Shown here: positions 3 to 12,490 of the stretch, piece after piece
Numbering within the stretch: position 1 is the stretch's first letter
How the letters are laid out: each line of letters starts with the position of its first letter
Program-made: the position numbers and the translations under genes
Source: Alphaproteobacteria bacterium
GTDB lineage: Bacteria > Pseudomonadota > Alphaproteobacteria > Acetobacterales > Acetobacteraceae
Length of the DNA: 12,490 nucleotides
Assembly: GCA_013298245.1 (NCBI GenBank)
Contig: JAAFHD010000065.1
Location: 1 to 12,490 of the forward strand
Reading direction: 5' to 3'
The notes under the pieces: model-generated
What the model was told of the DNA's origin: nothing
The model's input: the letters and a program-made list of their open reading frames with translations, nothing else
Databases searched by the model: none

Positions 3-1709
3 CGCGCCGGCCAGCGCGTTTTGCTGCTGCGCCCGATGGGCGTGGAGGTGGTGGTCGGCCCCCTGCTGGTGCCCGGCAAAACGCCGCCCTATGGCGCGCT
101 GGGCCTCAGGCTCGCGATGCTGAACCCGCTGCGCAACCTGGTGCCGCTGGAGCATCGGCGCGCCCTCGCCAGCCGTGCCGCGCTGCCCGCCACGCAGCGC
201 ATCGCCGCCCATATCGCGGCCACCGAAATCACCCGCATTGTGGCCGGTGCGGAGGCCGCGCTGAGCGGTGCGGCGATCGTCATCTGCACGCGCAGCTGGC
301 AGAGCCAGACGCACCGCCTGATCCCGCTGGATGACACCCCGCGCGACCACCAAGGCCTGATCGAGATCGCATCGCGCCCGGTGCGCGATGACGCCGGCGG
401 CGCGCTGCGCGTCAACCGCCCGGAGGAGATGCTGGCGCGCTACGAACACCTGGTCAGCCCGCTCACCGGCATCGTGCCCTATGTCTCGCTGGCGACGCCG
501 CCGGCGGCGCGATTCCAGGTGGCGGTATCAGGCCCCAACCACGCAGTGGGCGTGAACCGCATGGCCGATCTGCGCCGCGGCCTGCGCCATTCCAGCGCCG
601 GCAAGGGTGCCAGCCAGGCGCAAGCCCGCGCCGGCGCGCTGGGCGAGGCGCTGGAACGCCACAGCGGCGTGCTGCGCCCCACCGACGCGCGCATCCGCGC
701 CACCTTCGCCGAAATGCGCGACCGCCACGGCGACGCCGCCATCCATGCCAACACCGTCATGGGCTACAGCGCGCGCCAGTACGCCGAACGCGATGCGTGG
801 AACGCCCGCGGCTGCCGCTTCAACCTGGTGCCCGAAGAACTACCGCATGACGTGCCGGTGGACTGGACCGCGATGTGGTCGCTGACGCGCGAGCGCCAGG
901 TGTGGCTGCCGACGCAGCTGGTGACCGTCGGCGCGATGGCCGCCGAAGGCGATACGCGCCGCTTCGCCATGGGTTGTTCGAATGGCCACGCGGCCGGCAA
1001 CACGCTGGAAGAGGCGATGCTGCAAGGCCTGTTCGAATTGCTCGAACGCGATGCGACGGCGATCTGGTGGTACAACCGCATCCGTCGCCCGATGGTGTCG
1101 GAAGACCTGCTGGCGGAGGTGCTGGGCCCCGGCAAGCTCGGCCTTGAACGCCGGCGCGTGGAGGTGCTGGACATCACCAGCGACCTCGGCGTCCCGACCT
1201 TCACCGCGATCATGAGCGATGATGACGCGGTGGGCAGCAAACCCTTGCTGGGCCTGGGTTGCCACGTCGATCCGCGCATCGCCATCACGCGCGCGGTGAC
1301 AGAAGTGCACCAGATGGCGCCGGCGGCCAGCACCGGTTTCGACCATGCCGATCTGGACGCGCCGCTGCGCGATTGGCTGGCCAATGCCACGCTGGACAAC
1401 CAGCCCTATCTGCGCGGCGACGCGACGGCGCGCGCGCTGCCCGTGGCGACCTGGACGCCGAGTGGCGATATCGGCGCCGACCTTCGCGCCGTCATCGCGC
1501 ATCTGGATGCGCATGGGCTGGAGGTGCTGGCGCTGGACCAGACGCGCCGCGATATCGGCCTGTCGGTGGTGAAGATGCAGGTGCCTGGGCTGCGGCATTT
1601 CTGGGCGCGCTTCGCACCCGGCCGCCTGTACGACGCGCCGGTGCGCAGCGGCCTTCTGCCGGCACCGCTGGCGGAAGAGGCGCTGAACCCGATCGGCCTG
1701 TTCATCTGA
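3..1709 (+). CDS. E1-like/YcaO fused azoline cyclodehydratase, 5'-truncated by window
   Basis: This is a YcaO-family cyclodehydratase, which uses ATP to turn Cys/Ser/Thr of a RiPP core into azolines. The reading frame is open to the left edge and the first visible residues already match the middle of the E1-like, leader-handling half (a GPLLVPGKT stretch at nt 57-83), so the true start lies upstream; a TTG at nt 21 is in frame but is not a convincing start. Counting that TTG as residue 1, the YcaO domain covers about 170-562. It shows GKGASQAQAR (194-203), ALGEALERHSG with E209/E212, CSNGHAAGNTLEEA (319-332), a FELLERDA helix (338-345) and AVTEVHQ (425-431), all matching YcaO ATP/Mg-binding motifs. 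Two features are odd: the usual CxxC zinc pairs of the E1-like part are missing, and the C-terminus reads LNPIGLFI rather than a PxPxP-type tail. The stop overlaps the next start (TGATG), so the two genes are probably translationally coupled. Family assignment is firm; the exact domain type of the missing N-terminus is inferred. Confidence 0.93.
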   Translation, partial: RAGQRVLLLRPMGVEVVVGPLLVPGKTPPYGALGLRLAMLNPLRNLVPLEHRRALASRAALPATQRIAAHIAATEITRIVAGAEAALSGAAIVICTRSWQSQTHRLIPLDDTPRDHQGLIEIASRPVRDDAGGALRVNRPEEMLARYEHLVSPLTGIVPYVSLATPPAARFQVAVSGPNHAVGVNRMADLRRGLRHSSAGKGASQAQARAGALGEALERHSGVLRPTDARIRATFAEMRDRHGDAAIHANTVMGYSARQYAERDAWNARGCRFNLVPEELPHDVPVDWTAMWSLTRERQVWLPTQLVTVGAMAAEGDTRRFAMGCSNGHAAGNTLEEAMLQGLFELLERDATAIWWYNRIRRPMVSEDLLAEVLGPGKLGLERRRVEVLDITSDLGVPTFTAIMSDDDAVGSKPLLGLGCHVDPRIAITRAVTEVHQMAPAASTGFDHADLDAPLRDWLANATLDNQPYLRGDATARALPVATWTPSGDIGADLRAVIAHLDAHGLEVLALDQTRRDIGLSVVKMQVPGLRHFWARFAPGRLYDAPVRSGLLPAPLAEEALNPIGLFI

Positions 1710-3040
1710 TGCTGGACGCCGCCGCCCCGGCGCAGGATGCGCGGCAAGCCGTGCTTCGCGTGGCGCTTCCCGCGCATGTGCGCGTGCACATCACCGATGA
1801 TGCGATCCGCCTGCTGACCGGCCTGGATCGTGCCGCGCGGCTTGGCCGCACCGCGCAGGCCGAGGCCATGCTGCGCGCCCTGCAAGACGCGCCGCTGGCA
1901 ACCGCTGATCTATCGGCCGAAGACCAGCTTCTGCTGCACCAGTTGGAAGCACGCGGCATGCTCGCATCATCCTGGTGGGTGGGTGATCGGCGCCTGCTGT
2001 GCTTCGAGCCGATCGGCGCAATGGGCAGCCGCATTCCCGCCACCGCGCAAGGCAAGCTGCGGCTTTCCCCCATGGCGATGCTACGCCCCACCGCCACCGG
2101 TTTCGCGCTGCTCGCCGCCGATGGCGCCGCGCGCCTTTTGCTCGACACGCCGTTGCCCGATGGCCTGTTGGACGCGCTGGCCCAAGGCTGCGACCTGCCC
2201 ACGCTGGTCGTACTCGGCCTGCCCATGCCGGTCGCGCGCGACCTGCTGCGCTGGGGCATCGCCGCGCGTGTGCTGACGCCGCCCGACACAGAGCCGCAAC
2301 CCGGTTGGGAATTCCACGACATGCTGTTCCATCACTGGAGCAATGTCGGGTTTCTCGACCTGCCAGCGGCCGCCACCTATCGGCACTTGGCAACCCATCC
2401 CGCGCCCTGGGCGCCGGCGCCGCGCGACCCCGCGGCACTGCCCTTGCCGCCACCCCTGCCCCTGCCGCCGATCAGCCTGGCCGACGCCGCCGCGCAACGC
2501 CGCAGTTCCCGCGATCCGGGGCGCAAGGCGCTGACGCCGGAACGCCTCAGCGGATTGCTGCACCACATTGCCGCCCACAATGGCAGCATCAGCGGCACGC
2601 TGCCCGATGGCACCACGCGCAGCCTGCCCACGCGCCCCGTGCCATCAGGCGGCGCTGCACAGGCTGTGGATGTGCATGTGCTGCCGCGCAGCATCGCGGG
2701 CCTCGCACCGCGCGTGCATCGCTATGACGGCGCGCATCACGCGCTGGTGCCGCTCGGCCATGCGCAGCCCGCGGTCGATGACGGCATGGGCTGGATGACG
2801 ATCGCACTCGTCGCCCGCTTCTGGCGCGCGCAGTGGAAATACGAACGCATCGCCTATCGGCTGATGATGCTGGAGGCCGGCGCGCTGATCCAACAGACCT
2901 GCCTGGTCGGCAATGCCTATGGCCTCTCGGTCTGCCCCTGGGGTGCGCTGGACGCGCGCCAATTCGCCGAAGCCAGCGGCCTTGATCCATGGCGCGAAGG
3001 GCTGCTCGGCGGCCTTTTCGTCTGGGGCGCCAGGACATGA
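1709..3040 (+). CDS. SagB-type FMN-dependent dehydrogenase (azoline oxidase)
   Basis: This 443-residue protein belongs to the SagB-type nitroreductase-fold dehydrogenases, which use FMN to oxidise azolines to azoles in TOMM pathways. Residues 1-200 form the N-terminal region seen in the longer SagB proteins, ending with WEFHDMLFHHWS (200-211), a recognisable SagB hallmark. A proline-rich linker (about 232-255) leads to the nitroreductase domain at 256-443. That domain has RRSSRDPG (264-271, typical phosphate/FMN-contact region), RPVPSGGAAQAVDVHVL (309-325), KYERIAYRLMMLEAGALIQQ (377-396) and a GLSVCPWGALD segment (405-415). The start was chosen at the ATG that overlaps the upstream TGA; the frame is open further upstream, but that stretch lies inside the YcaO gene and is out of character. 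No Shine-Dalgarno is seen, so coupling is likely. The substrate is inferred to be the azoline-bearing NHLP precursor encoded at 3940-4344. Confidence 0.9.
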   Translation: MLDAAAPAQDARQAVLRVALPAHVRVHITDDAIRLLTGLDRAARLGRTAQAEAMLRALQDAPLATADLSAEDQLLLHQLEARGMLASSWWVGDRRLLCFEPIGAMGSRIPATAQGKLRLSPMAMLRPTATGFALLAADGAARLLLDTPLPDGLLDALAQGCDLPTLVVLGLPMPVARDLLRWGIAARVLTPPDTEPQPGWEFHDMLFHHWSNVGFLDLPAAATYRHLATHPAPWAPAPRDPAALPLPPPLPLPPISLADAAAQRRSSRDPGRKALTPERLSGLLHHIAAHNGSISGTLPDGTTRSLPTRPVPSGGAAQAVDVHVLPRSIAGLAPRVHRYDGAHHALVPLGHAQPAVDDGMGWMTIALVARFWRAQWKYERIAYRLMMLEAGALIQQTCLVGNAYGLSVCPWGALDARQFAEASGLDPWREGLLGGLFVWGART

Positions 3041-3066: not shown

Positions 3067-3444
3067 ATGCGCTTTCGCACCCTCGCCACACTGGCACTCG
3101 CCAGCCTCATCGCCACACCCGCCATGGCCCAGGGCGGCCGCGGCACCAGCACGCCGACCTGCGTCTCGGCGGGCATCCTCTCCCAAGGGCCGTTGCAGAT
3201 GGGCGGCGGCGGCCCGGGGCGCTGGAGCTACACCGTGCGCATCTCCAACAACCGCGACACGCGCATCCACTTCGACGTCTATTTCCACCCCGCGCCGAAC
3301 GGCCCCGCGCAGATGCTCTACCAACCTGGCCAGAGCCTGAACCGCCGCGAATCGCGCGACTTCACCATCGGCTACAGCAACGGCCCGATGGCCCAGGCCG
3401 ATGTGCTGAACAGCCTGTTCATCATGTGCCCGCGGCACATGTGA
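3067..3444 (+). CDS. Small secreted protein of unknown function, two-Cys layout (A)
   Basis: This is a 125-residue protein that I do not recognise. It has a clear Sec signal peptide (MRFRTLATLALASLIATPAMA, cleavage before QGG at about residue 22), leaving about 104 exported residues. The mature part has only two cysteines: one near its start (PTCVSAG) and one four residues from the end (IMCPRHM). Between them lie alternating beta-like segments (WSYTVRISNN, IHFDVYF, RDFTIGYS), which suggests a small beta-sandwich closed by a disulfide. The ATG at 3067 is preceded by GGAG (3054-3057) at a 9-base spacing; an upstream in-frame ATG at 3037 overlapping the SagB stop is less likely because its only purine run sits two bases away. 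It is co-directional with YcaO and SagB, 26 bases after SagB. Role unknown; immunity, periplasmic chaperone or product carrier are guesses. Confidence 0.8.
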   Translation: MRFRTLATLALASLIATPAMAQGGRGTSTPTCVSAGILSQGPLQMGGGGPGRWSYTVRISNNRDTRIHFDVYFHPAPNGPAQMLYQPGQSLNRRESRDFTIGYSNGPMAQADVLNSLFIMCPRHM

Positions 3445-3458
3445 GAGCGGAGAGAACC

Positions 3459-3851
3459 ATGCACCGCACGCTTCCCATCCTGGCCGCCATGCTGGCCATC
3501 AGCACGCCCGCCTTCGCGCAGGGCACGCGCGCCTTCTGCAATGACCGCGTGACCATCCGCATCGATGCACCGCGCGAATCACCACTGACATCCGGCGACA
3601 GACCGGGCGAAGGTGGGCCGCGCACCGTCACGCTGCTCTACAGCGGCGAAGTGGTGAACACCCGCAACCGCCCGACGCGCGTCACCATCGCCGTCAGTGG
3701 CCTGGCCAATACCAGCGGCGCGCTGGCGCCCATCGATGTGGCGCCGGAAGGCCGTGTCAGCGGACGCACCCTCGTCAGCTACAGCGGCAGCCCGATCAGC
3801 ATCCCGCAGGTTGCGTCGGTGCTGGCCAATCTGCGCGTGACCTGCACCTGA
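3459..3851 (+). CDS. Small secreted protein of unknown function, two-Cys layout (B)
   Basis: This is a 130-residue protein of unknown family. The signal peptide (MHRTLPILAAMLAISTPAFA, cleavage before QGT near residue 21) leaves about 110 residues. As in its upstream neighbour there are two cysteines, one near the mature N-terminus (RAFCND) and one second from the C-terminus (RVTCT). The middle is beta-rich (RTVTLLYSGEVVNTRN, TRVTIAVSG), and the end pattern of an R-led strand, a YS.. turn and a hydrophobic final strand ending in Cys (RTLVSYSGSPIS, VLANLRVTC) resembles protein A, so the two may be diverged paralogues. The ATG at 3459 follows GGAGAG (3449-3454) with good spacing and lies 14 bases after the previous stop. 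It is the last gene of the modification operon, directly before the terminator pair. Export to periplasm or outside is well supported; function is not. Confidence 0.8.
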   Translation: MHRTLPILAAMLAISTPAFAQGTRAFCNDRVTIRIDAPRESPLTSGDRPGEGGPRTVTLLYSGEVVNTRNRPTRVTIAVSGLANTSGALAPIDVAPEGRVSGRTLVSYSGSPISIPQVASVLANLRVTCT

Positions 3852-3893
3852 AAACACCACCGCCGGTCAGCGTTTGGCGCTGACCGGCGGTGG
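3851..3893 (-). terminator. Probable intrinsic terminator for the - strand NHLP precursor gene
   Basis: A perfect 16-bp stem (3857-3872 with 3878-3893, loop TTTGG) is followed on the - strand by TGTTTT (3856-3851). It lies about 47 bases beyond the stop of the precursor gene. On the + strand it has no T run downstream, so it best serves the leftward transcript. Together with the adjacent + strand terminator it forms a tandem two-way transcription barrier. Confidence 0.7.
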
Positions 3894-3939: not shown

Positions 3940-4344
3940 TCAGCCGGTGAAGGCACTGGCGGCAGAGACGTTGCACGACGTCGTCATCTCGCTGGTCGTA
4001 TTGACGCAGTTGACCGACTGCGTGCCGCAACCGGTCGCCGTCATGCCGGTGAACTGGCTCGTCACCGCGCTCTGGTAGCTGAAGCCGCCGGCAGCACCGG
4101 CCAGGTCCTCGTCGCTCAGCACGGCCGAGGGCTTGGGCGGCAGCACGACATGCAGCGTGTCCGCCGTGCTCTCATGCACGGCGATGGTCAGGCCCGCGGG
4201 AACCTCGAAGCCCTCGCGCGCGAGCGTGTTCATCGGGTCGGCCAGCAGTGCCGCCTTGAAGGCGTCATCCGCCCAGGCGCGGGCAATGATGCGCTGGCTG
4301 TCGCGCAGCTGATCAAGGGTGAAACGGCCGATGGGGTTGTTCAT
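3940..4344 (-). CDS. NHLP-leader RiPP precursor peptide, Ser/Thr/Cys-rich core
   Basis: This 134-residue precursor is the likely substrate of the YcaO/SagB pair. Residues 1-87 form a nitrile-hydratase-alpha-like leader: ARAWADDAFKAALLADP (21-37), GFEVPAGLTIAVHES (45-59), TLHVVLPPKP (63-72), LSDEDLAG (76-83), ending in Gly-Gly at 86-87, where a C39 peptidase is expected to cut. The core is residues 88-134 (47 residues) and contains 3 Cys (106, 113, 124), 8 Ser and 10 Thr, nearly half the core. It lacks the CTLC-type metal motif of true nitrile hydratase, so it is not an enzyme subunit. The start was chosen at ATG 4344 because AAGGAG (4357-4352) lies 7 bases upstream; a second ATG two codons earlier is too close to that site. 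The gene is monocistronic, converges on the modification operon and is divergent from the two-component genes. Confidence 0.92.
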   Translation of the reverse strand: MNNPIGRFTLDQLRDSQRIIARAWADDAFKAALLADPMNTLAREGFEVPAGLTIAVHESTADTLHVVLPPKPSAVLSDEDLAGAAGGFSYQSAVTSQFTGMTATGCGTQSVNCVNTTSEMTTSCNVSAASAFTG

Positions 4345-4490
4345 GCGCATGCTCCTTGCTTGTGCGGCGCGCCCATGCTTCCGCGCACCGACCGATGCCG
4401 GCAAGGCGCTTGGCGCCAATCGAAAATATGCGCCGCACCGGCGAAAACACGGCGCTTCGCGCGCCCGCTTTCCGGCCGCATGATGCCACG
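4345..4490. promoter_or_regulatory. Divergent control region between precursor and response regulator
   Basis: This 146-base gap should hold promoters for the leftward precursor and the rightward two-component genes. It contains a strong leftward Shine-Dalgarno (AAGGAG, 4357-4352), a perfect 10-bp palindrome TTGGCGCCAA (4410-4419) and an imperfectly symmetrical block CGCCGcacCGGCG (4431-4443) between two A-rich stretches. On the - strand TATTTT (4428-4423) could be a -10 element, but the matching -35 (near 4450-4445) is weak. The rightward start at 4491 has no clear ribosome site. The palindrome near the predicted leftward transcription start could be an operator; that is inference. Confidence 0.45.
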
Positions 4491-5267
4491 ATGAAGCCCG
4501 CCACACTGTTGTTGATCGAGGATGACCGCGACCAGGCCATGCTGGTCGTGGAGATGCTGCGCGCATCGGGTTTCCGCCTGCTGGTCGCGACCACCGCCGC
4601 CGATGGCCATGCCCGCGCGCTGTCGCAATTGCCGGACCTGATCCTGCTGGATGCAGGTCTGCCCGATGGCGATGGTCGCCTGCTGTGCCGCCGCCTGCGG
4701 GACGATGCGCGCACCGCCGACATCCCCGTCATCATGCTGACCGCGCAGAGCGAGCAGGAAGCCAAGCGCGCCGGCTTCGACGCTGGCGCCAGCGACTACG
4801 TCACCAAACCCTTCGACGCGCCGGAATTGATCGCGCGCATCCGCGTGCATCTGCGCCGCCCCGCGCAACCCGCCGAACCCGCGCCCGACACCAACGTGCC
4901 GATGCGCCAGGAGCTGCACCGCACCGCGCGCCTGGTGGCCGAAACCAAGGCGCGGCTGGTCAGTGATCTCGCCACGCCACCAAGCCTGGAGCGCATCGCG
5001 CGCCAGCTCGCGACCAACGAGAAACGCCTGGCCGAGCTGTTCCGCGCGCAAACCGGCCAGACGCCCTTCGAGTATCTGCGCGCAGAACGCCAGCGCCGCG
5101 CCTGCGCGCTGCTGATCGAAACCGACCTCTCCATCGGTGAGATCGCGCTGCGCGTCGGCTTCACCAGCCAGGCCGCCTTCGCCACCGCCTTCCGCGAACG
5201 CTTCGGCCTGACGCCGCGCGATTTCCGCCGAAGCGCGGGCCTGGTGCCCGAGGATCCGCCAGCGTGA
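4491..5267 (+). CDS. Response regulator, REC + AraC-type HTH
   Basis: This is a 258-residue DNA-binding response regulator. The REC domain (about 5-122) has the acidic pair D11/D12, phospho-acceptor D54 (LILLDAGLPDG), T84 (IMLTAQS) and K106 (YVTKPF), so it should be phosphorylatable. After a linker (123-150), residues 160-247 form an AraC/XylS-type double helix-turn-helix: SLERIARQLATNEKRLAELF, then the signature FEYLRAERQRRACALL, IGEIALRVGF, and FATAFRERFGLTPRDFR. The start is the ATG at 4491, just before the REC core. No Shine-Dalgarno precedes it, so it may be poorly translated or leaderless. Its stop overlaps the kinase GTG by four bases (GTGA), so the two are co-translated partners. Position between the two precursor genes suggests control of RiPP expression; the target sites are unknown. 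Confidence 0.9.
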   Translation: MKPATLLLIEDDRDQAMLVVEMLRASGFRLLVATTAADGHARALSQLPDLILLDAGLPDGDGRLLCRRLRDDARTADIPVIMLTAQSEQEAKRAGFDAGASDYVTKPFDAPELIARIRVHLRRPAQPAEPAPDTNVPMRQELHRTARLVAETKARLVSDLATPPSLERIARQLATNEKRLAELFRAQTGQTPFEYLRAERQRRACALLIETDLSIGEIALRVGFTSQAAFATAFRERFGLTPRDFRRSAGLVPEDPPA

Positions 5268-7780
5268 TCCGCCTGCTGCTGGTGCTTCTGACCTGGGCCG
5301 CGACGGCGGGCGCGCAGACCATTCCCGTCGGCGACGGCGCGCTGCGCATCGGCCCGGAAATGGCCATCAACATGACCGCACCGCCGAGTGCCAGCGCGGC
5401 GGAGATACTGCGCGCACCAGGCTTTGCACCGCGTGGCGACACCACGCTCGACCTCGGCTTCACACGCGGCACGGCGGTCTGGTTGCGCGCGCGCATCACC
5501 AACCCAAGTGCGGCGCCGATCGAACGCGTGCTGACGATGATGCCCGCGCCACCACAACTCGCCGAGCTACACATCTTCACCGCCGAAGGACTGCCGCGCG
5601 GCCCGCCGCATCTCGGCGGCCGGCTGCGCCCCGCGGACCAACGCGACGTGCCCGCGGATGCCGCCGCCTTCCTCATCCGCCTCGCCCCCGGCGAGACGGT
5701 CGATCTGCTGTTGCGCAGCGAAAGCCGTGGCCGCGTCGTGATCCGCCCCATCCTGCTGGACCCGCGCGAGCACGCGCTCGGCCTGCTGGACCAGCAATTC
5801 GTGATGCTCGCGGCACTTGGTGGCTCGGTCGTGCTGCTGCTGGTCACACTCGCGCTCTTCGCCATCGACCGCCAACCAACCTTGCTGCTGATGGCGCTGC
5901 GCCTGGCCACGGTGCTGGTGGGCGAGCTTGGCGTTTCCGGCATTCTCGGCCCGACCCTGTGGCCAGACGCTCTCTTCCTGGATGCAATGTTGCCAGCGAT
6001 CGCGCTCAGCACCTCCACCACGCTGCTCGGGTTTTTCATCCTCGCATTCCTGCCCAAGCCCTTCGCCGCACCAACGCGCGCGCCACTGCTTTGGCTGTCG
6101 GTGCTGGCAATGCCGACCATCCTCGGCATGGTCATTGGCTTCTCGGCATCGCAGGTCAGCAACGTGCTGACCTTGATGGTGCTGGGCATCACACTACTTG
6201 GCCTTCTGGCTGCGGCACTGGCGTTGCGCGAAGGCTTCGCCGGCGCGCGCCTGTTGTTGCTCGGCATGCTGTTGCTGTTTGGCGCACTCGTGCTGCGCTT
6301 CGGCGTCGCGCGGGGTGTGATCGAGTGGGATGTGCCGCCCTCCGCCTGGGTCGGGCTGGGATCGGTGATGAACGTCATCCTGCTGGCCGCGATCATGGAT
6401 CGGGGCCTGGCGCTGCGCATGGCGGCGGGTGCCGCGCAAGCACGCGCATTGTCGATCGAAACTGAACTGCGCGCACGCCTGGAACAGGAGGTCGCCGCGC
6501 GCACCACAGCACTCGAAATCGCCAAGCGCGAGGCCGAGCAGGCGAACCACGCCAAGACCGATTTCCTCGCCCGCGTCGGCCATGAACTGCGCACGCCGCT
6601 GCACAGCATCCTGGGCTATGCCGCGCTGATCCGCGCGACGATGCAGGACCGCGAACAGCTCGACCGCCTGCGCGTGGTGGAGGTCAGCGGCCGCCATCTG
6701 CTGGGCCAGATCGAGGACCTGCTGCGCCACGCGCGCGGCGATGAGGATGTGGAGGCGCTATCGATCGCGCCCTTCGATCCAACGGAACTCATCGACCGCA
6801 TGGCGCGCCAAGGCGAAGTGCTCGCAGCACCTTGGAATGTGCGCTTCGTGCTGCATGACGATCAGCCACCTGGCGCGCTGATGCTCGGTGATGCGCGGCG
6901 CATCGAACAGGTCCTGCTCGTGCTGCTGACCAACGCCATGCGCGCTGCACCCGATGGCGAGGTCACATTCCAATGGCACGCCACGCAGGATGCCGATGGC
7001 TGGCGCGTCGATGCCGCCGTCATCGACAATGGCCGCGGCATTCCGCTGGCCGACCAGGCGCGCATTTTCCAACCCTTCGAGCGCGGCGCGGAGGCCGGCG
7101 GCCAAGGGCTTGGCCTCGGCCTACCGATCGCCGCACGCATCCTGGAACGCATGGGCAGCGCCTTCGCCCTCGACAGCACGCCGGGACAGGGCAGCCGCTT
7201 CGCCTTCACGCTGCGCTTAGGTGCTGCGGCGCCAGACGTCGCTACCCCCATCGGGCTGCCCATCGACATCCTGCTGGTGGAGGACGACGCCGACCACGCC
7301 GCATTGCTGAGCGACGCATTGGGCCGCGCCGGGCACCGGCTGCGCCACGCGCCGGATCTCGCCACGGCGCGCTGCGCATTGGTCGAAGCACCGCCCGAAA
7401 TCCTGTTGCTGGATCAGAACCTGCCCGATGGCACAGGCTGGGATTTGCTGGCCGAAGCCCGCATGGCGCCGGAGCGCGTGATCATGGTCTCCGCCAATGA
7501 TGCCGCGCCGCCAGGCGCCCCGCGCCCCGCGCTGTTCCTGCGCAAGCCGCTTGCCATCGATGCGCTGCTGCGCGCCATCGCGGCCACGCATGCTGCCGCC
7601 GTCCTGCCGAACCTGGCCGATGCCGCTGCCGCCGGCGATGTCTTCGCCATTGAAAACTGGCTGCGCGCGGCGCGCGACGGCGCCGCACCGCCCGACACCA
7701 TCGCACGCATTGAGGCCGCACTCGGCCGGCTGGAATTCGACGCGATCGCGCAGTTGGCGCGGGGCGCGCCGCCGGGTTGA
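5264..7780 (+). CDS. Hybrid sensor histidine kinase with 7TMR-DISM sensor
   Basis: This 838-residue membrane kinase has, in order: a signal peptide (1-17), a periplasmic DISMED2-like beta domain (about 20-170), seven hydrophobic helices (near 180-201, 204-228, 240-263, 272-293, 299-321, 327-347, 362-379), a coiled-coil (390-430), HisKA with phospho-acceptor H440 (ARVGHELRTPLHSILGY), HATPase with N557 (LLTNAM), D588 (IDNGRGIP) and the GGQGLGLGLP loop, then a REC domain from about 667 with D717 (LLLDQNLPDG) and K in FLRKPL. The last 60 residues are helical with no histidine, so they are not a phosphotransfer (Hpt) domain. DISM sensors are thought to bind small ligands such as carbohydrates or other exported molecules. 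The GTG start overlaps the regulator stop. Co-location suggests it senses a cue, possibly the RiPP product, and signals to the REC-AraC regulator. Confidence 0.92.
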   Translation: MIRLLLVLLTWAATAGAQTIPVGDGALRIGPEMAINMTAPPSASAAEILRAPGFAPRGDTTLDLGFTRGTAVWLRARITNPSAAPIERVLTMMPAPPQLAELHIFTAEGLPRGPPHLGGRLRPADQRDVPADAAAFLIRLAPGETVDLLLRSESRGRVVIRPILLDPREHALGLLDQQFVMLAALGGSVVLLLVTLALFAIDRQPTLLLMALRLATVLVGELGVSGILGPTLWPDALFLDAMLPAIALSTSTTLLGFFILAFLPKPFAAPTRAPLLWLSVLAMPTILGMVIGFSASQVSNVLTLMVLGITLLGLLAAALALREGFAGARLLLLGMLLLFGALVLRFGVARGVIEWDVPPSAWVGLGSVMNVILLAAIMDRGLALRMAAGAAQARALSIETELRARLEQEVAARTTALEIAKREAEQANHAKTDFLARVGHELRTPLHSILGYAALIRATMQDREQLDRLRVVEVSGRHLLGQIEDLLRHARGDEDVEALSIAPFDPTELIDRMARQGEVLAAPWNVRFVLHDDQPPGALMLGDARRIEQVLLVLLTNAMRAAPDGEVTFQWHATQDADGWRVDAAVIDNGRGIPLADQARIFQPFERGAEAGGQGLGLGLPIAARILERMGSAFALDSTPGQGSRFAFTLRLGAAAPDVATPIGLPIDILLVEDDADHAALLSDALGRAGHRLRHAPDLATARCALVEAPPEILLLDQNLPDGTGWDLLAEARMAPERVIMVSANDAAPPGAPRPALFLRKPLAIDALLRAIAATHAAAVLPNLADAAAAGDVFAIENWLRAARDGAAPPDTIARIEAALGRLEFDAIAQLARGAPPG

Positions 7781-7781
7781 A

Positions 7782-8864
7782 TCAGGCCGCCTGCCGGCGT
7801 TGCCGGACAGCGACGCGCGACACGCCCGGATAGGCCTTCGCGCGCAATTCGCCATCGCCATCGAAGCCCAGCTTGAATTGCAGGATGTAGCGCATCAGCA
7901 CGGGCAGCATTTCTGCGCTGGCGTGCCGATGCGGCGCACCGGTGATGGGGCGGATGTCATGGCACCAGCCATTCCAACCCAGCAGCGCGGGCGCAACCTC
8001 CGGGCGGCACAGGCGAACGCGCACCATCCAGTCGATGATCGCATGCAGCCGCGCCAGTTTCTCCGCCGCCGGTGCAAAGGGCCAGATCGGAATCGGCAGG
8101 CCGACGCGCGGCGCGCGATCGGCGTAGAAATCCAGCGTGACATGCAGCGCGGGTTCGAAACCCTCATGCACCGCGGCCGCGTGCAGCAGGCGCTCGCTCG
8201 CCTCCACGCCCCAGATTTCGCGCAGCGCCAGGGCCAGTTCCGCCGCCGGCCAGCCGAAGGTGCGCAGGCGCAGCGGCAGGCCCTCGCGGCCGGTCATGAC
8301 GCCGATGGTGGGCACGGTGACGCCGGCCGGGCGCTGACGGTCCAGCCGTGCGACGGCTTCGCGGATGACCGGCGGCGTGGGTTCGCCGCAGACCAGGCGG
8401 TAGGCGTTGTCGGTCTCCTGCACCAGGTTTTCCGCGTGCTTGGCGGGGCATTCCAGCAGCAGGCAGGGTTCGGGGCGCGGGCCTTCCATCGCGGCGCGGT
8501 CGAATTCCAGCCACAGCCGCGCATCCAGCGGGCTGCCGCGCATGCCGAATTCGCGGAGCTGTTGCGCCATGCGCCGCGCCAGTTGCCAGGCCGGCAACGG
8601 CCTCAGATCGGGCGCCACATCGTGCTCCGGCACGGCACCGGCCAACACGTCGAAATCAGCGGGCACGGCGGGCGCAGCGGCGGTGGAAAAATCGATCGGC
8701 GCGGCGGTGTCATGCAGCCGCACCTCGAAGCCGAAATCGAGCGACGGCAACCGCCGCGCCAGCGACAGCATCGCCGGCCGCGCGGCCGCCGGCACCAGCT
8801 CCTGCGGCACCAGATTGAGAATAAGGTCGAGGTCGTGCCCCGTGGTCCAACTTGGCAAATGCAT
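7782..8864 (-). CDS. Conserved-looking protein of unknown function in the NHLP locus
   Basis: This 360-residue cytoplasmic protein has no signal peptide or membrane helix and no catalytic motif I can name. Visible landmarks are HDLDLILNLVPQEL near the N-terminus, LWLEFDRA in the middle, VPTIGVMTGREGLPLRLRTF, then LHVTLDFYADRAPRVGLPIPI, a helical stretch (LHAIIDWMVRVRLC) and ELRAKAYPGVSRV near the end. From memory this order (WLEFD, a GVM..R strand, PR.GL, KAY..V) recalls uncharacterised proteins found beside RiPP and NHLP clusters; I cannot confirm it here. The ATG at 8864 is preferred; the frame stays open to a GTG at 8981, which would give 399 residues but overlap the divergent precursor start. 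No convincing Shine-Dalgarno was seen for either. It ends one base from the convergent kinase stop with no terminator between them. Confidence 0.75.
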   Translation of the reverse strand: MHLPSWTTGHDLDLILNLVPQELVPAAARPAMLSLARRLPSLDFGFEVRLHDTAAPIDFSTAAAPAVPADFDVLAGAVPEHDVAPDLRPLPAWQLARRMAQQLREFGMRGSPLDARLWLEFDRAAMEGPRPEPCLLLECPAKHAENLVQETDNAYRLVCGEPTPPVIREAVARLDRQRPAGVTVPTIGVMTGREGLPLRLRTFGWPAAELALALREIWGVEASERLLHAAAVHEGFEPALHVTLDFYADRAPRVGLPIPIWPFAPAAEKLARLHAIIDWMVRVRLCRPEVAPALLGWNGWCHDIRPITGAPHRHASAEMLPVLMRYILQFKLGFDGDGELRAKAYPGVSRVAVRQRRQAA

Positions 8865-8974
8865 GCGCACACCATGCAGCGCCGCCGTGTCGCATGCAGC
8901 CGCGATCACGCGCGGCGAAAAAATCCACCGCCACAGCGAAAGCCGCGGGTGTGCGCGCTGTGCATGCTGTGTGC
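8865..8974. promoter_or_regulatory. Divergent control region before precursor 2/export operon
   Basis: This 110-base region lies between the - strand unknown gene and the + strand precursor-HlyD-ABC operon. I see no clear -35/-10 pair in either direction. It does hold a direct repeat CATGCAGC (8873-8880 and 8893-8900, exactly 20 bases apart), an inverted repeat GCCGCG/CGCGGC (8899-8904 and 8911-8916), an A6 run (8918-8923) and a repeated TGTGCATG (8959-8966 and 8970-8977), whose second copy includes the start codon. The 20-base phasing would suit an AraC-type regulator on one face of the helix, but this is inference. Confidence 0.35.
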
Positions 8975-9262
8975 ATGTCACACCCCAGCGATGGCGCCGC
9001 CGTCGACATCCGCAGCCTGGTCGCGCGCGCCTGGAGCGACCCGGCCTTCAAGCGCAGGCTGGTCGATGACCCGGTGGGCACGCTGGCGGCCGCTGGCATC
9101 CATGTGCCGTCGGGCGTGATGATCAGCGTGCACGAAAGCAGTGCCACGCATCGCCACCTGGTGCTGCCGCCGCCACCCGACGGCGTGCTGACCGACCAGG
9201 AACTGGATCGCGTCGCCGGCGGTGTTGGCGCATTGCCGCCGATGATCGCGTATCTGCTGTGA
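8975..9262 (+). CDS. Second NHLP-leader peptide with short hydrophobic core
   Basis: This 95-residue peptide is clearly homologous to the precursor encoded at 3940-4344 across the leader: VARAWSDPAFKRRLVDDP (16-33), GIHVPSGVMISVHESS (41-56), HLVLPPPPDG (61-70), LTDQELDRVAGG (72-83). After Gly-Gly (82-83) only twelve residues remain, VGALPPMIAYLL, with no Cys, Ser or Thr, so YcaO chemistry cannot act on it. It could be a signal peptide, a decoy or regulatory leader, a substrate of another enzyme, or a degenerate precursor. The ATG at 8975 was chosen because the leader homology starts soon after; in-frame GTG codons at 8951, 8960 and 8969 are alternatives, and none has a good Shine-Dalgarno. 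Its TGA overlaps the GTG of the HlyD-like gene by four bases, so export genes are translationally coupled to it. Confidence 0.85.
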   Translation: MSHPSDGAAVDIRSLVARAWSDPAFKRRLVDDPVGTLAAAGIHVPSGVMISVHESSATHRHLVLPPPPDGVLTDQELDRVAGGVGALPPMIAYLL

Positions 9263-10503
9263 GCGGCACGGCGCCCCGCCGGCCCGAAGCCGGCGAACAG
9301 CTGGACGCGCTGGTGCGCGTGACGCCGCCGCGCGCATGGGTGGCGCTGGCCGCCGTGCTGGTGATGCTGGGTGCGGTGCTGGTGTGGTCATGGGCCGGTC
9401 GCGTGCCGACCACCGTGCGCGGCCCGGGCCTTCTGCTGGCCGAGGGCGGGCTGCTGCACGAAGCCGTCACCGAGGGCACCGGCATGGTGGAGGTGGTGCT
9501 GGCCGATCTTGGCACGCGCGTGCAGGCGGGCCAGGTGATCGCACGCATCACGCAGCCGGAATTGCAGCAGCAGATCACGCTGGCCGGCGAGGTGGTGGCC
9601 GAGCGCGAGGTGGATCTGCAACGCATCCGCGGCTTCGCCGATGAAACGCTGAACCGCCAGCGCATGGCGATGGCCGAACGCCGCGCGGCGATGGGCGCCA
9701 TCATGACCGCGGCGCGCGAGCGCGAGGCGCAGCTGGCGCGCCGCCTGGCGGAGACGGAGGCGCTGCTGGCGCAGGGCATCGCCACGCGCCCGGCCGCATT
9801 GGCAGCGCGCAGTGCGGCGAACCAGGCCTCGCAGGAAGTGGCGGATGCGCGCAACACGCTGGCGCAGCTGGACCTGCAATTGCTGGAATTGACCGGCCAG
9901 GGGCAGCAGCGCGTCAGCGATGCGGAGCGCGCGCTGGCCGATGCGCGACGGCGCGTGGAGGAGCTGGCGCTGCGCCTGGAACGCCAGCGCGAAGTGCGCG
10001 CACCGGCCGCCGGGCGCGTGACGGAAATCCGCGCGCCGCGTGGTGCCACGGTGCGCCCGGGCACCGTGCTGCTGGCGCTGGAGGATGGCGCGGAACGGCT
10101 TGAACTCGTGCTGTTCATCCCGCCGCGCGACGGCCGGCGCGTACGGCCTGGCATGCCCGTGCGCGTCTCGCCCGCCACCGCGCGCTGGGAGGAATTCGGC
10201 GCCATGCTGGGCGAGGTTTCATCCGTCTCCGAGTTTCCCGCCACGCGCGAGGGCATGGCCGCCATTCTGCGCAATGACACGCTGGTGCAGAATTTCACGC
10301 GTGACGGACCGGCCTATCTGGCGCGTGTGCGGCTGCTGCCCGATACCGCGACAGTCAGCGGGCATCGCTGGACTTCCGCGCGCGGGGCGGAAGCGGCGGT
10401 GGCCGCGGGCACATTGGCTGATGCGACGGTGCGCGTGCGCGAACAGCCACCCATCACGCTGGCGCTGCCGCTGCTGCGAGAGCTGCTGGGCTTTGACTTC
10501 TGA
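9259..10503 (+). CDS. NHLM-type HlyD-like membrane fusion/secretion protein
   Basis: This 414-residue protein is the periplasmic adaptor that pairs with peptidase-containing ABC exporters in NHLP systems. After a short cytoplasmic tail comes one membrane helix (about 25-46), then the first half of a lipoyl domain (VTEGTGMVEVVLADLGTRVQAGQVIARI, about 70-97), a long alpha-helical hairpin rich in Arg, Glu, Ala and Leu (about 100-245), and the second lipoyl half with APAAGRVTEIRAPRGATVRPG (about 248-268), followed by a beta-barrel region up to about 400. It uses a GTG start at 9259 within the stop of the precursor (GTGA) and has no separate ribosome site. Four bases separate its stop from the exporter start. 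The family assignment is strong; which peptide it exports, or whether it takes both, is inferred. Confidence 0.92.
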   Translation: MSGTAPRRPEAGEQLDALVRVTPPRAWVALAAVLVMLGAVLVWSWAGRVPTTVRGPGLLLAEGGLLHEAVTEGTGMVEVVLADLGTRVQAGQVIARITQPELQQQITLAGEVVAEREVDLQRIRGFADETLNRQRMAMAERRAAMGAIMTAAREREAQLARRLAETEALLAQGIATRPAALAARSAANQASQEVADARNTLAQLDLQLLELTGQGQQRVSDAERALADARRRVEELALRLERQREVRAPAAGRVTEIRAPRGATVRPGTVLLALEDGAERLELVLFIPPRDGRRVRPGMPVRVSPATARWEEFGAMLGEVSSVSEFPATREGMAAILRNDTLVQNFTRDGPAYLARVRLLPDTATVSGHRWTSARGAEAAVAAGTLADATVRVREQPPITLALPLLRELLGFDF

Positions 10504-10507
10504 CGCC

Positions 10508-12490
10508 GTGACACCCACCCCCGCCAGCTTCGAACAGCCCGCCAGCGGCAGGCGGCAACGCGTGCCGACCATCCTGCAAATGGAGGCGACCGAGTGCGGC
10601 GCGGCGTGTCTTGCGATGGTGCTGGCGCATCACGGCCGCTGGGTGCCGCTGGAGCAGTTGCGTCAGGATTGCGGTGTCTCCCGCGATGGATCGCGCGCGT
10701 TGAACCTGTTGCGCGCGGCGCGTGCGCATGGCCTGCATGCGCAGGGTTTTCGCAAATCCATCGATGAGCTGTCAGGGCTGCGGCTGCCGCTGATCCTGTT
10801 CTGGAACTTCAACCATTTCGTGGTGCTGGAGGGCATCGACACCAAGCGCGCCTGGATCAACGACCCCGCCAATGGCCCGTGTGAAGTGCCGCTGGAGGAA
10901 TTCGGCCGCGCCTTCAGCGGTATCAGCCTGGCCTTCATCCCCGGTCCTGAATTCCGTCGCGAAGGTGCTGCGCCGGCGCTGGTCGCGCCGCTGCTGGCGC
11001 GCTTGCGCGGTGACCGCACGACCATGATCTTTCTGCTGCTGGTGACACTCGCGCTGATCCTACCCGGGCTTGCGGTGCCGGCGCTGACGCAGCTTTTCGT
11101 CGACCGTGTCCTGGCGCAATCGCAGCGCGATTGGCTGGTGCCCATCCTGCTCGGCCTTGGGCTGTCGGCGCTGCTGCGTGGCATGCTGGGCTGGATGCAG
11201 CAGGCGCAGCTGGCGCGGCTGGAATTGAAGCTGGCGGCGGGCGGCGGTGCTGGGTTCCTCGCGCATATGCTGTCCCTGCCGATCGCGTTTTTCGCGCAGC
11301 GCCACAGCGGCGAACTGGCCTTCCGCATGGGCGGTAACAACCGCGTGGCGGAGCTGCTGGCGGGCCAGCTGGCGACGAGCGCGATCGGGCTGTTCAGCAT
11401 GGTGTTCTTTGCCGCGCTGATGCTGCTGTTTGACCCGCTGATGACGGCGGTGGCCATCGCCGCCGCCGCGCTGAACCTGGCTGCGCTGATGCTGGTGGAC
11501 CGCATGCGCGCCGATGGTAGCCGCAGGCTTTTGCGCGAACAGGGCGCGTTGCTCGCCGTCTCCGTCACTGGTGTGCGGCTGATCGAAACGCTCAAGGCGA
11601 GCGGCACCGAGGATGATTTCTTCCGCCGCTGGGCCGGCGTGCAGGCGCGCTATCTGACCGCGATGCAGGAGCTGCAGGTCGCGTCACTGATGCTGGGCGC
11701 GATGCCGGCATTGCTCACCGCGCTGGGCACGGCGGCGGTGCTGGGCATCGGCGCCTGGCGCGTGACGGAAGGGGCGATGACATTGGGCGGCATCATCGCC
11801 TTCCAATCGCTGATGGCGAGCTTCATGCAGCCGGTCGATGGCCTGGTGCGGCTGGGCACCAACCTGCAGACATTGCGCGCCGATGTGGCGCGGCTGGATG
11901 ATGTGCGGCGCTACCCGGCAGCACCCGCAGCGCCCGCCTTGCGTGAGGCGCCGCAGCCGCTTGGCGGCATGGTCGAATTGCGCGACGTCACCTTCGGCTA
12001 CAGCCCGCTGGATGCGCCACTGCTGGAGGGGTTTTCGCTGCGCCTCGCGCCTGGCAGCCGCATTGCGCTGGTCGGTGGTTCGGGCAGTGGCAAGTCCACC
12101 GTGGCGCGCCTGGTGGCTGGCTTGCACCAACCATGGTCAGGCGAAATTCTGCTCGATGGCCGACCGCTGCGCGACATTCCGGCGGAACGCCTGGCGGCGT
12201 CCATCGCGACGGTGGACCAGGACATTTTCCTGTTCGAAGGCAGCCTGCGGGACAACATCGCGCTGTGGGATGCAACGCTGGCGGAGACCGAGCTGCTGGC
12301 CGCGCTGCGCGATGCCGCGATCCTGGATGTGGTGGATGCACGGCCCGGCCGGCTGGACGCCGCGGTGGCCGAAGGCGGGCGCAATTTCAGCGGCGGCCAG
12401 CGCCAGCGGCTGGAGATCGCGCGCGCGCTTGCGACCAACCCCAGCGTGCTGATCCTGGACGAAGCCACCTCTGCGCTCGACCCGCTGGTG
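10508..12490 (+). CDS. NHLM-type peptidase C39/ABC exporter, 3'-truncated by window
   Basis: This peptidase-containing ABC transporter cuts leader peptides after Gly-Gly and exports the core. The 661 visible residues start at a GTG four bases after the HlyD gene. The C39 peptidase domain (about 15-145) shows LQMEATECGAACLAMVL with catalytic C30, H103 (NFNHFVVLEG) and D119 (WINDPANGP), so it looks active. The transmembrane domain follows (about 165-440, several hydrophobic helices). The ATPase domain (about 485 on) has Walker A GGSGSGKST with K529, Q-loop VDQDIFLFEG, signature FSGGQRQRLE (627-636) and Walker B VLILDEATSALD (D651/E652). The frame remains open at the right edge just after the D-loop, so the H-loop and roughly the last 60 residues are missing. 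In NHLP loci a second ABC protein often follows; it would lie outside the window. Confidence 0.95.
   Translation, partial: MTPTPASFEQPASGRRQRVPTILQMEATECGAACLAMVLAHHGRWVPLEQLRQDCGVSRDGSRALNLLRAARAHGLHAQGFRKSIDELSGLRLPLILFWNFNHFVVLEGIDTKRAWINDPANGPCEVPLEEFGRAFSGISLAFIPGPEFRREGAAPALVAPLLARLRGDRTTMIFLLLVTLALILPGLAVPALTQLFVDRVLAQSQRDWLVPILLGLGLSALLRGMLGWMQQAQLARLELKLAAGGGAGFLAHMLSLPIAFFAQRHSGELAFRMGGNNRVAELLAGQLATSAIGLFSMVFFAALMLLFDPLMTAVAIAAAALNLAALMLVDRMRADGSRRLLREQGALLAVSVTGVRLIETLKASGTEDDFFRRWAGVQARYLTAMQELQVASLMLGAMPALLTALGTAAVLGIGAWRVTEGAMTLGGIIAFQSLMASFMQPVDGLVRLGTNLQTLRADVARLDDVRRYPAAPAAPALREAPQPLGGMVELRDVTFGYSPLDAPLLEGFSLRLAPGSRIALVGGSGSGKSTVARLVAGLHQPWSGEILLDGRPLRDIPAERLAASIATVDQDIFLFEGSLRDNIALWDATLAETELLAALRDAAILDVVDARPGRLDAAVAEGGRNFSGGQRQRLEIARALATNPSVLILDEATSALDPLV

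Follow-up and report, generated by a model that had tools for sequence, protein, structure and literature searches.

What product is expected from the short gene at 3940..4344 of a contig of 12,490 nucleotides (the window; the whole stretch of DNA analyzed here), and which of the neighboring genes would take part in its formation? The window is an entire contig of a draft genome taken to be alphaproteobacterial (3.70 Mb in 523 contigs, 82.8% complete), with a uniform GC content of 66-73%. An earlier note had read the gene as coding for an NHLP precursor (hereafter precursor 1) next to YcaO and SagB, and had predicted a polyazole/azoline peptide, probably undescribed. The present analysis indicates with good probability that the window is part of an azol(in)e-proteusin cluster, with a predicted prenyltransferase. 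The earlier reading was incomplete in that a second NHLP precursor (precursor 2), an NHLM exporter, and a predicted ABBA prenyltransferase were left unmentioned, and it is qualified by the loss of zinc cysteines from YcaO. The lost YcaO zinc cysteines, the divergent SagB, and the location of precursor 1 on the strand opposite to the presumed enzymes are points against the explanation as a whole. Since the contig ends cut the start of YcaO and the transporter, some tailoring genes may be missing.

Gene organization of the window and precursor 1

The genes and sites in the window are listed in Table 1. The position, strand, and reading frame given before for precursor 1 proved right: the frame runs on the minus strand from ATG at 4344 to a stop codon at 3940-3942, encodes 134 residues, and is preceded by AAGGAG. 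Its location next to YcaO and SagB needs qualification: the gene is read from the other strand, and 899 bases, with two small genes in them, separate it from the stop codon of SagB. The two small secreted-looking proteins, for which no homologues were found in the related loci, are possibly accessory or immunity proteins. The inverted repeat at 3857-3893, part of which was scored as a minus-strand terminator in a terminator scan, is likely a terminator separating the convergent gene at 3459-3851 from the precursor 1 gene.

Table 1. Positions of genes, precursor parts, and sites in the window
Feature	Position	Strand	Remarks
Fused YcaO cyclodehydratase (leader-binding/E1-like part and SagD-type YcaO)	3..1709	+	Start codon beyond contig end
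SagB-type FMN dehydrogenase (azoline oxidase)	1709..3040	+	ATG shares one base with YcaO stop
Small protein, signal-peptide-like start	3067..3444	+	No NCBIfam/Pfam match
Second small secreted-looking protein	3459..3851	+	No family over its cutoff
Perfect 16-bp inverted repeat, 5-base loop	3857..3893		Read from sequence
NHLP precursor 1, 134 aa	3940..4344	-	TIGR03793, 72 bits
Leader of precursor 1, residues 1-87	4084..4344	-	LX4L, L76-L81; Gly-Gly, 86-87
Core of precursor 1, residues 88-134, 47 aa	3943..4083	-	3 Cys, 8 Ser, 10 Thr, 1 Glu
Ribosome-binding site for precursor 1 (AAGGAG)	4352..4357	-	Seven bases upstream of ATG
Response regulator, AraC-type DNA-binding domain	4491..5267	+	PF00072, PF12833; divergent from precursor 1
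Hybrid sensor histidine kinase, 7TMR-DISM sensor	5264..7780	+	PF07695, PF07696, PF00512, PF02518, PF00072
Predicted ABBA-fold prenyltransferase, 360 aa from ATG 8864	7782..8864	-	Frame open from 8981; no Pfam/NCBIfam annotation
NHLP precursor 2, 95 aa	8975..9262	+	TIGR03793, 72.7 bits
Core of precursor 2, VGALPPMIAYLL	9224-9259	+	No Ser/Thr/Cys
NHLM HlyD-family secretion adaptor	9259..10503	+	TIGR03794, 284.5 bits (cutoff 156.2); overlaps precursor 2
NHLM peptidase/permease/ATPase transporter	10508..12490	+	TIGR03796, 901 bits (cutoff 853.3); candidate start GTG at 10508; runs off contig end

The assignment of precursor 1 as an NHLP precursor was confirmed by TIGR03793, which covers residues 17-87 with a score of 72 bits (cutoff level, 50.9), and by the presence of LX4L (LSDEDL, residues 76-81) followed by Gly86-Gly87. 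Recounting of the core downstream of Gly-Gly agreed with the note: 21 of the 47 residues are Ser, Thr, or Cys, the three Cys are in GCG, NCV, and SCN contexts, and apart from Glu at core position 32 the core is uncharged. The core contains one Tyr (core position 3) and no Trp, and the monoisotopic mass of its unmodified form is computed to be 4735.013 Da. Since Ser/Thr/Cys number 4.5 on average (sd 2.2, maximum 12) in 3473 segments of 47 residues from the ten other proteins of the window, and only nine in the 87 residues of the leader, the richness of the core in these residues is beyond composition.

When 5.8 billion proteins were searched, the only matches besides the query were three proteins covering 51-67% of precursor 1, approximately the length of the leader. 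The core thus gave no close relative, in line with the hypervariable cores of NHLP precursors. Comparison can therefore not show which residues of precursor 1 are modified. The view that the product is probably undescribed agrees with this result for the core, but azole-bearing NHLP peptides as such have already been described experimentally.

For comparison, a total of 76 other distinct NHLP cores of 3-60 residues were collected from the neighborhoods of YcaO or prenyltransferase genes. No core among them reaches 47 residues or 21 Ser/Thr/Cys, the nearest being a nostatin-like core with 20 in 31 residues (locus L050). Leader matches ending before Gly-Gly and tails outside 3-60 residues were excluded from this collection, by which 30 of 123 NHLP-domain frames were dropped. 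Without the filter, tails of at least 47 residues are present in 17 frames, and stretches of 47 residues with 25 (L051) and 21 (L058) Ser/Thr/Cys are found behind weak leader matches of 39 and 36 bits, respectively. The ranking of the precursor 1 core as the longest and richest overall was dropped, because it fails once the filter is lifted. In L051 (702-3035), L058 (8068-9459), and L030 (7563-9410), a frame in the vicinity of YcaO begins with a stretch that weakly resembles NHLP (33-39 bits); the very long tails behind it, of 373-711 residues, contain 123-231 Ser/Thr/Cys.

YcaO, SagB, and the proposed pathway

The identities of the enzymes, as named before, were borne out by the curated cutoff levels: the fused YcaO matched TIGR03882 with 66.7 bits (cutoff 36.9) and TIGR03604 with 250.7 bits (cutoff 219.25), and SagB matched TIGR03605 with 85.4 bits (cutoff 78.4). 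Both the fused cyclodehydratase-YcaO and the FMN dehydrogenase, features of azole proteusin clusters, are present. In an alignment of 60 rows (59 relatives and the copy in the window, L001), YcaO retains 100 of the 118 conserved columns, among them the glutamate pairs E215/E218 and E345/E348. At the four Cys columns, which we take to be the zinc ligands, the window copy carries P29, A32, T112, and D115, whereas CCCC is present in 56 of the 59 relatives; of the other three, two retain three of the Cys and one is a truncated sequence. In the corresponding alignment of SagB (40 rows; 39 relatives and the window copy, L001), 37 of 57 conserved columns including K377-Y378 are retained and 20 are not, and the SagB copy in the window is, as judged from this alignment, divergent. 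The zinc tetrathiolate mentioned for a cyclodehydratase in the available part of one report (PMC2887384) is absent from the cyclodehydratase part of the window YcaO, and this loss provides a natural test of the zinc requirement in cyclodehydration. The assignment of the cluster to the azole proteusins is based on its other features, with the zinc site noted as an exception.

These replacements in YcaO and departures in SagB are the signs to be expected if the pair were decaying and precursor 1 were exported unmodified or nearly so. Both frames, however, are long and intact, YcaO keeps most of its conserved columns together with the paired glutamates, and LX4L and the Ser/Thr/Cys richness of the core persist; decay is held to be distinctly improbable. 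With the leader, YcaO, and SagB over the cutoff levels, LX4L present, and database hits only of leader length, a probably undescribed azol(in)e peptide is the best reading of precursor 1. The predicted conversion into an azol(in)e peptide is well supported, though weakened by the lost zinc site. An azole/azoline peptide as proposed in the note stands in this form, but the word polyazole goes further; the number of rings is not readable from the sequence.

A pattern scan of species genomes gave 263 YcaO relatives, from which 80 loci were kept; an NHLP leader was found in 37 of these and a SagB relative in 53. The closest YcaO relatives among these 80 loci show about 52-53% identity in the case of a fragment (L016), whereas full-length sequences do not exceed 44%. 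Among nine same-genus genomes, a SagD match over the cutoff was found only in the genome of the window, and the gene set is therefore unconfirmed by close relatives. Two NHLP precursors, with the cores GAKKKTQAVSM and RRSYCLPWGRQ, were observed in another same-genus genome (L188, 137-756; G141, contig C73), in which no SagD-type YcaO was found.

In the proposed pathway, the NHLP leader of precursor 1 would use LX4L and its first helix to dock on the leader-binding part of YcaO, by analogy with MprE7, the leader of which binds the YcaO MprC through these two elements according to the available text of that study (PMC12455567). As expected from the enzyme families, YcaO with ATP would convert the core Cys and some of the Ser/Thr into azolines, and SagB would turn some of the azolines into azoles. 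The peptidase of the NHLM transporter would cleave after Gly-Gly, and export would take place with the HlyD adaptor. The divergent response regulator and the kinase probably control precursor 1. Less certain is the step of the predicted ABBA prenyltransferase, a probable isoprenylation for which the Tyr in VGALPPMIAYLL is the most plausible site. It is likely that the product is exported and serves as an antibacterial or signaling peptide.

The predicted ABBA-fold protein and precursor 2

The protein encoded at 7782-8864 matched no family of Pfam or NCBIfam at E up to 10. In the predicted model, it forms an alpha-beta-beta-alpha barrel, as judged from the order of secondary structures and from fold searches, with modest Foldseek TM-scores (0.36-0.51 for the 13 best). 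It is divergent, with 16-24% identity to its family, and the profile of this family gave no sequence match to solved prenyltransferases. In ABBA prenyltransferases, diphosphate-binding Arg, Lys, and Tyr are located on the barrel strands. Of 57 members of the family to which the window protein belongs, 52 to 57 share E47, D58, D122, R193, R199, K331, K343, and Y345, and the conserved acidic, basic, and Tyr positions are mostly on predicted strands. Among them, R193, R199, K331, K343, and Y345 are of the Arg/Lys/Tyr type, a likeness at the level of residue kind. H329 and E257, otherwise common in the family, are absent from the window protein.

The shared fold, itself predicted, does not prove activity. 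An ABBA-fold protein devoid of prenyltransferase activity, such as an immunity protein or a leader-binding helper, would be in keeping with a fold match that shows no function and with a divergent copy of which the family profile finds no solved prenyltransferase. The near-complete conservation of the strand positions and the enzyme-like fusion to methyltransferase domains in 5 of 61 relatives speak against this, and such a role is considered unlikely. As modeled, the gene product is probably an enzyme that isoprenylates one of the peptides made by this pathway.

The association with NHLP precursors is seen beyond the window. A short NHLP precursor was located within approximately 10 kb of a family member in 16 of 27 same-class regions and in none of 20 control regions, where the match in control region L228 was a frame of 795 bases taken for nitrile hydratase and not counted; of the 27, ten gave no NHLP match and one only a large NHLP-like frame. 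Among the 80 YcaO loci, a prenyltransferase relative was found in four, all four with NHLP precursors. In two of them, L020 and L022 (Methylovulum), the relatives are weak and occur with Cys/Ser-rich cores mostly devoid of aromatic residues, and the model of the L020 relative is also weak (pLDDT 67.5). As many as 20 of the 26 linked precursors in the same-class regions end in Trp or Tyr (LCCCW accounting for seven), in agreement with an aromatic target close to the C-terminus; neither core in the window ends in this way.

Precursor 2 is recognized by TIGR03793 over the same cutoff level of 50.9 bits, and contains LX4L (LTDQEL, residues 72-77) and Gly-Gly at 82-83; no clear ribosome-binding site was seen in the sequence upstream. 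Its core VGALPPMIAYLL is devoid of heterocyclizable residues despite the YcaO/SagB cluster setting and therefore offers nothing for YcaO to cyclize. This core has one Tyr, third from the end, and no Trp, and its mass in the unmodified form is 1256.720 Da. Since the prenyltransferase gene adjoins precursor 2 and each core in the window has one Tyr and no Trp, precursor 2 is weakly favored as the substrate, at its Tyr.

The prenyltransferase might instead act on precursor 1, at Tyr3, at the N-terminus, or at core Ser/Thr, so that one azole peptide would also be prenylated, much as azolines and prenyl groups occur together in cyanobactins. The single Tyr of the precursor 1 core and the setting of the weak relatives in L020 and L022 are compatible with such a substrate, but the gene adjoins the other precursor, the linked precursors point to a C-terminal aromatic target, and the L020 model is poor, leaving precursor 1 a doubtful, if possible, substrate. 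Among the two precursors, precursor 2 is retained as the weakly favored one.

The leaders of the two precursors also differ. Positions 7, 10, and 11 of the first helix govern the choice of YcaO in MprE7, as stated in the accessible part of the study (PMC12455567). With alignment on A14 and W17, shared with the L020 precursors, these positions are R, Q, and R in precursor 1 and V, R, and S in precursor 2; these differences suggest that the leaders may be read by different enzymes.

A bolder reading makes the window a two-peptide system, in which precursor 1 gives the azole peptide by YcaO/SagB, while precursor 2 would be prenylated by the ABBA enzyme, leave through the same NHLM export, and act as a lipidated signal on the neighboring kinase and regulator to turn on precursor 1; the unannotated ABBA family would then serve NHLP precursors across several phyla, as prenylated proteusins. 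In the ComQXPA system, a prenyltransferase, a pre-pheromone, a kinase, and a regulator form a conserved unit. The window resembles it in that kinase, regulator, prenyltransferase, and precursor 2 follow one another at 4491-9262. No kinase or regulator match, however, was obtained in the 16 same-class regions with NHLP precursors, whereas the 20 control regions gave kinase matches in two and regulator matches in five; one regulator was matched in L015. This single-sequence search is insensitive, giving only one kinase match across the YcaO loci. The comparison therefore lends no support to the signal reading, which is very improbable as a whole.

Comparison with known systems and other loci

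The following comparisons extend as far as the available parts of the cited reports. Azole-bearing NHLP peptides have been shown experimentally for MprE1-10 with MprC and MprD (PMC12455567). The Mpr proteusins share with the window an NHLP leader with LX4L, a fused YcaO with a leader-binding domain, and an FMN oxidase (PMC12455567). The ten-precursor locus L020 of Methylovulum psychrotolerans, which would be the mpr cluster, likewise has a weak prenyltransferase relative, but its ten cores are of 7-10 residues as against one of 47 in the window, and its YcaO, 41% identical, keeps the zinc Cys that are lost in the window.

Nostatin A, with oxazoles and thiazoles on a core of 30 residues, is similar in its NHLP leader, YcaO, oxidase, and long Ser/Thr/Cys-rich core (PMC11583998). 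It differs in the core itself, and in having a LanM, an epimerase, and one more radical SAM protein (PMC11583998), all three missing from the window; in the L050 relative, the core is not preceded by Gly-Gly. Carnazolamide and the dehydrazoles also share the NHLP leader, YcaO, a dehydrogenase, and a Cys-rich core region, with a LanM-like dehydratase and an epimerase unseen in the window (PMC10676384).

In nostatin A and carnazolamide, a LanM-type dehydratase and an epimerase accompany the NHLP leader, YcaO, and oxidase (PMC11583998, PMC10676384), which raises the question of whether the precursor 1 core might become a hybrid of azoles with dehydrated residues, thioethers, or epimerized residues, through LanM-type or radical SAM genes on another contig. 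Such a product would resemble nostatin A or carnazolamide and not a pure polyazole. The L050 and L018 cores are similarly rich in Ser/Thr/Cys, and the window is one whole contig of an incomplete draft; LanM and radical SAM were nevertheless absent among the proteins scanned from the 12.5 kb, a cluster cut at both ends. A hybrid is a tentative alternative, and the azol(in)e peptide is kept as the reading of precursor 1. As MprE, nostatin A, and carnazolamide are described, precursor 1 would be a further member of the azole-proteusin kind; taken alone, it would extend this kind by a peptide whose core is long and rich in Ser/Thr.

The gene families NHLP, the TIGR03882 fusion, TIGR03605, and NHLM transporters are also those of the NHLP-TOMM clusters (Haft et al. 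2010) and of the NHLP/Nif11 group (Cox et al. 2015), for which the available text describes no NHLP-linked prenyltransferase (PMC2887384, PMC4603692); cyanobactin prenyltransferases are mentioned in the latter (PMC4603692). MppC is a leader-dependent ABBA prenyltransferase of a Nif11-leader lanthipeptide (PMC12715784). Its system is similar to the window in the ABBA fold, the RiPP cluster, and a long structured leader with LX4L, but is different in its lanthipeptide and Nif11 leader, with YcaO unmentioned in the accessible text (PMC12715784); the likeness is one of fold and setting. The PalQ-PalX-PalP cluster of Paenibacillus alvei also places an NHLP precursor beside a prenyltransferase and a histidine kinase (PMC10853753), but PalQ came from mining of the isoprenoid-synthase superfamily (IPR008949) instead of ABBA proteins, and the three-gene cluster is without YcaO (PMC10853753). 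Both MppC and PalQ, leader-aided peptide prenyltransferases, act on Trp (PMC12715784, PMC10853753). The Srp proteusins of sponge bacteria combine an NHLP precursor with YcaO, as in the window, but have a five-residue core and a brominase (PMC10858898, PMC10286304). The SrpE core LCCCW was found in 7 of the 27 prenyltransferase regions, and no match to SagB was obtained in these seven.

What is new in the cluster is that the gene set of an azole proteusin is joined by a second precursor and by a predicted ABBA prenyltransferase. In the literature available to us, the original mpr and srp papers aside, no description of an ABBA prenyltransferase in a YcaO-NHLP cluster was found. If the prenyltransferase reading is true, azole proteusins would join cyanobactins as peptides with both rings and isoprenyl tails, and the family, which has no Pfam or NCBIfam model, would be a handle for finding more; srp-core clusters, and perhaps mpr, may already carry a member.

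Several other loci were recorded in the course of the analysis. Precursors with LCCCW adjoin a gene of the prenyltransferase family in L194, L195, L197, L199, L200, L202, and L211, all of same-class genomes. A single prenyltransferase gene is located amid eleven NHLP precursors, all with C-terminal Trp, in L193 (6280-11890), and no YcaO was matched in this locus of 19.5 kb. The five relatives with added methyltransferase domains (P0049, P0051, P0052, P0054, and P0059) are 611-648 residues long. Frames of approximately 440-530 codons with an NHLP-like stretch of about 46-51 bits were noted near ABC-transporter genes in L194 (7365-8804), L195 (10225-11598), L197 (7881-9464), L199 (10441-11754), L200 (3179-4513), and L209 (5111-6499). 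An NHLP frame broken by a stop codon is present in a cyanobacterial cluster (L015, 8478-8795), and a frame in L022 (7717-8862) has an NHLP-leader-like beginning (MNEEQIRHHSQIVARQW), while the rest of the frame looks like a membrane desaturase. In Sinorhizobium medicae, an NHLP-like precursor (L048, 8561-9139) carries a tail repeating a GWSACIGLPVTAQLCFSGAGQPGGG-like unit, and the NHLP precursor of L017 (3793-4311) has a core very rich in Gly and Cys (ACGGGGCRCGGGG...).
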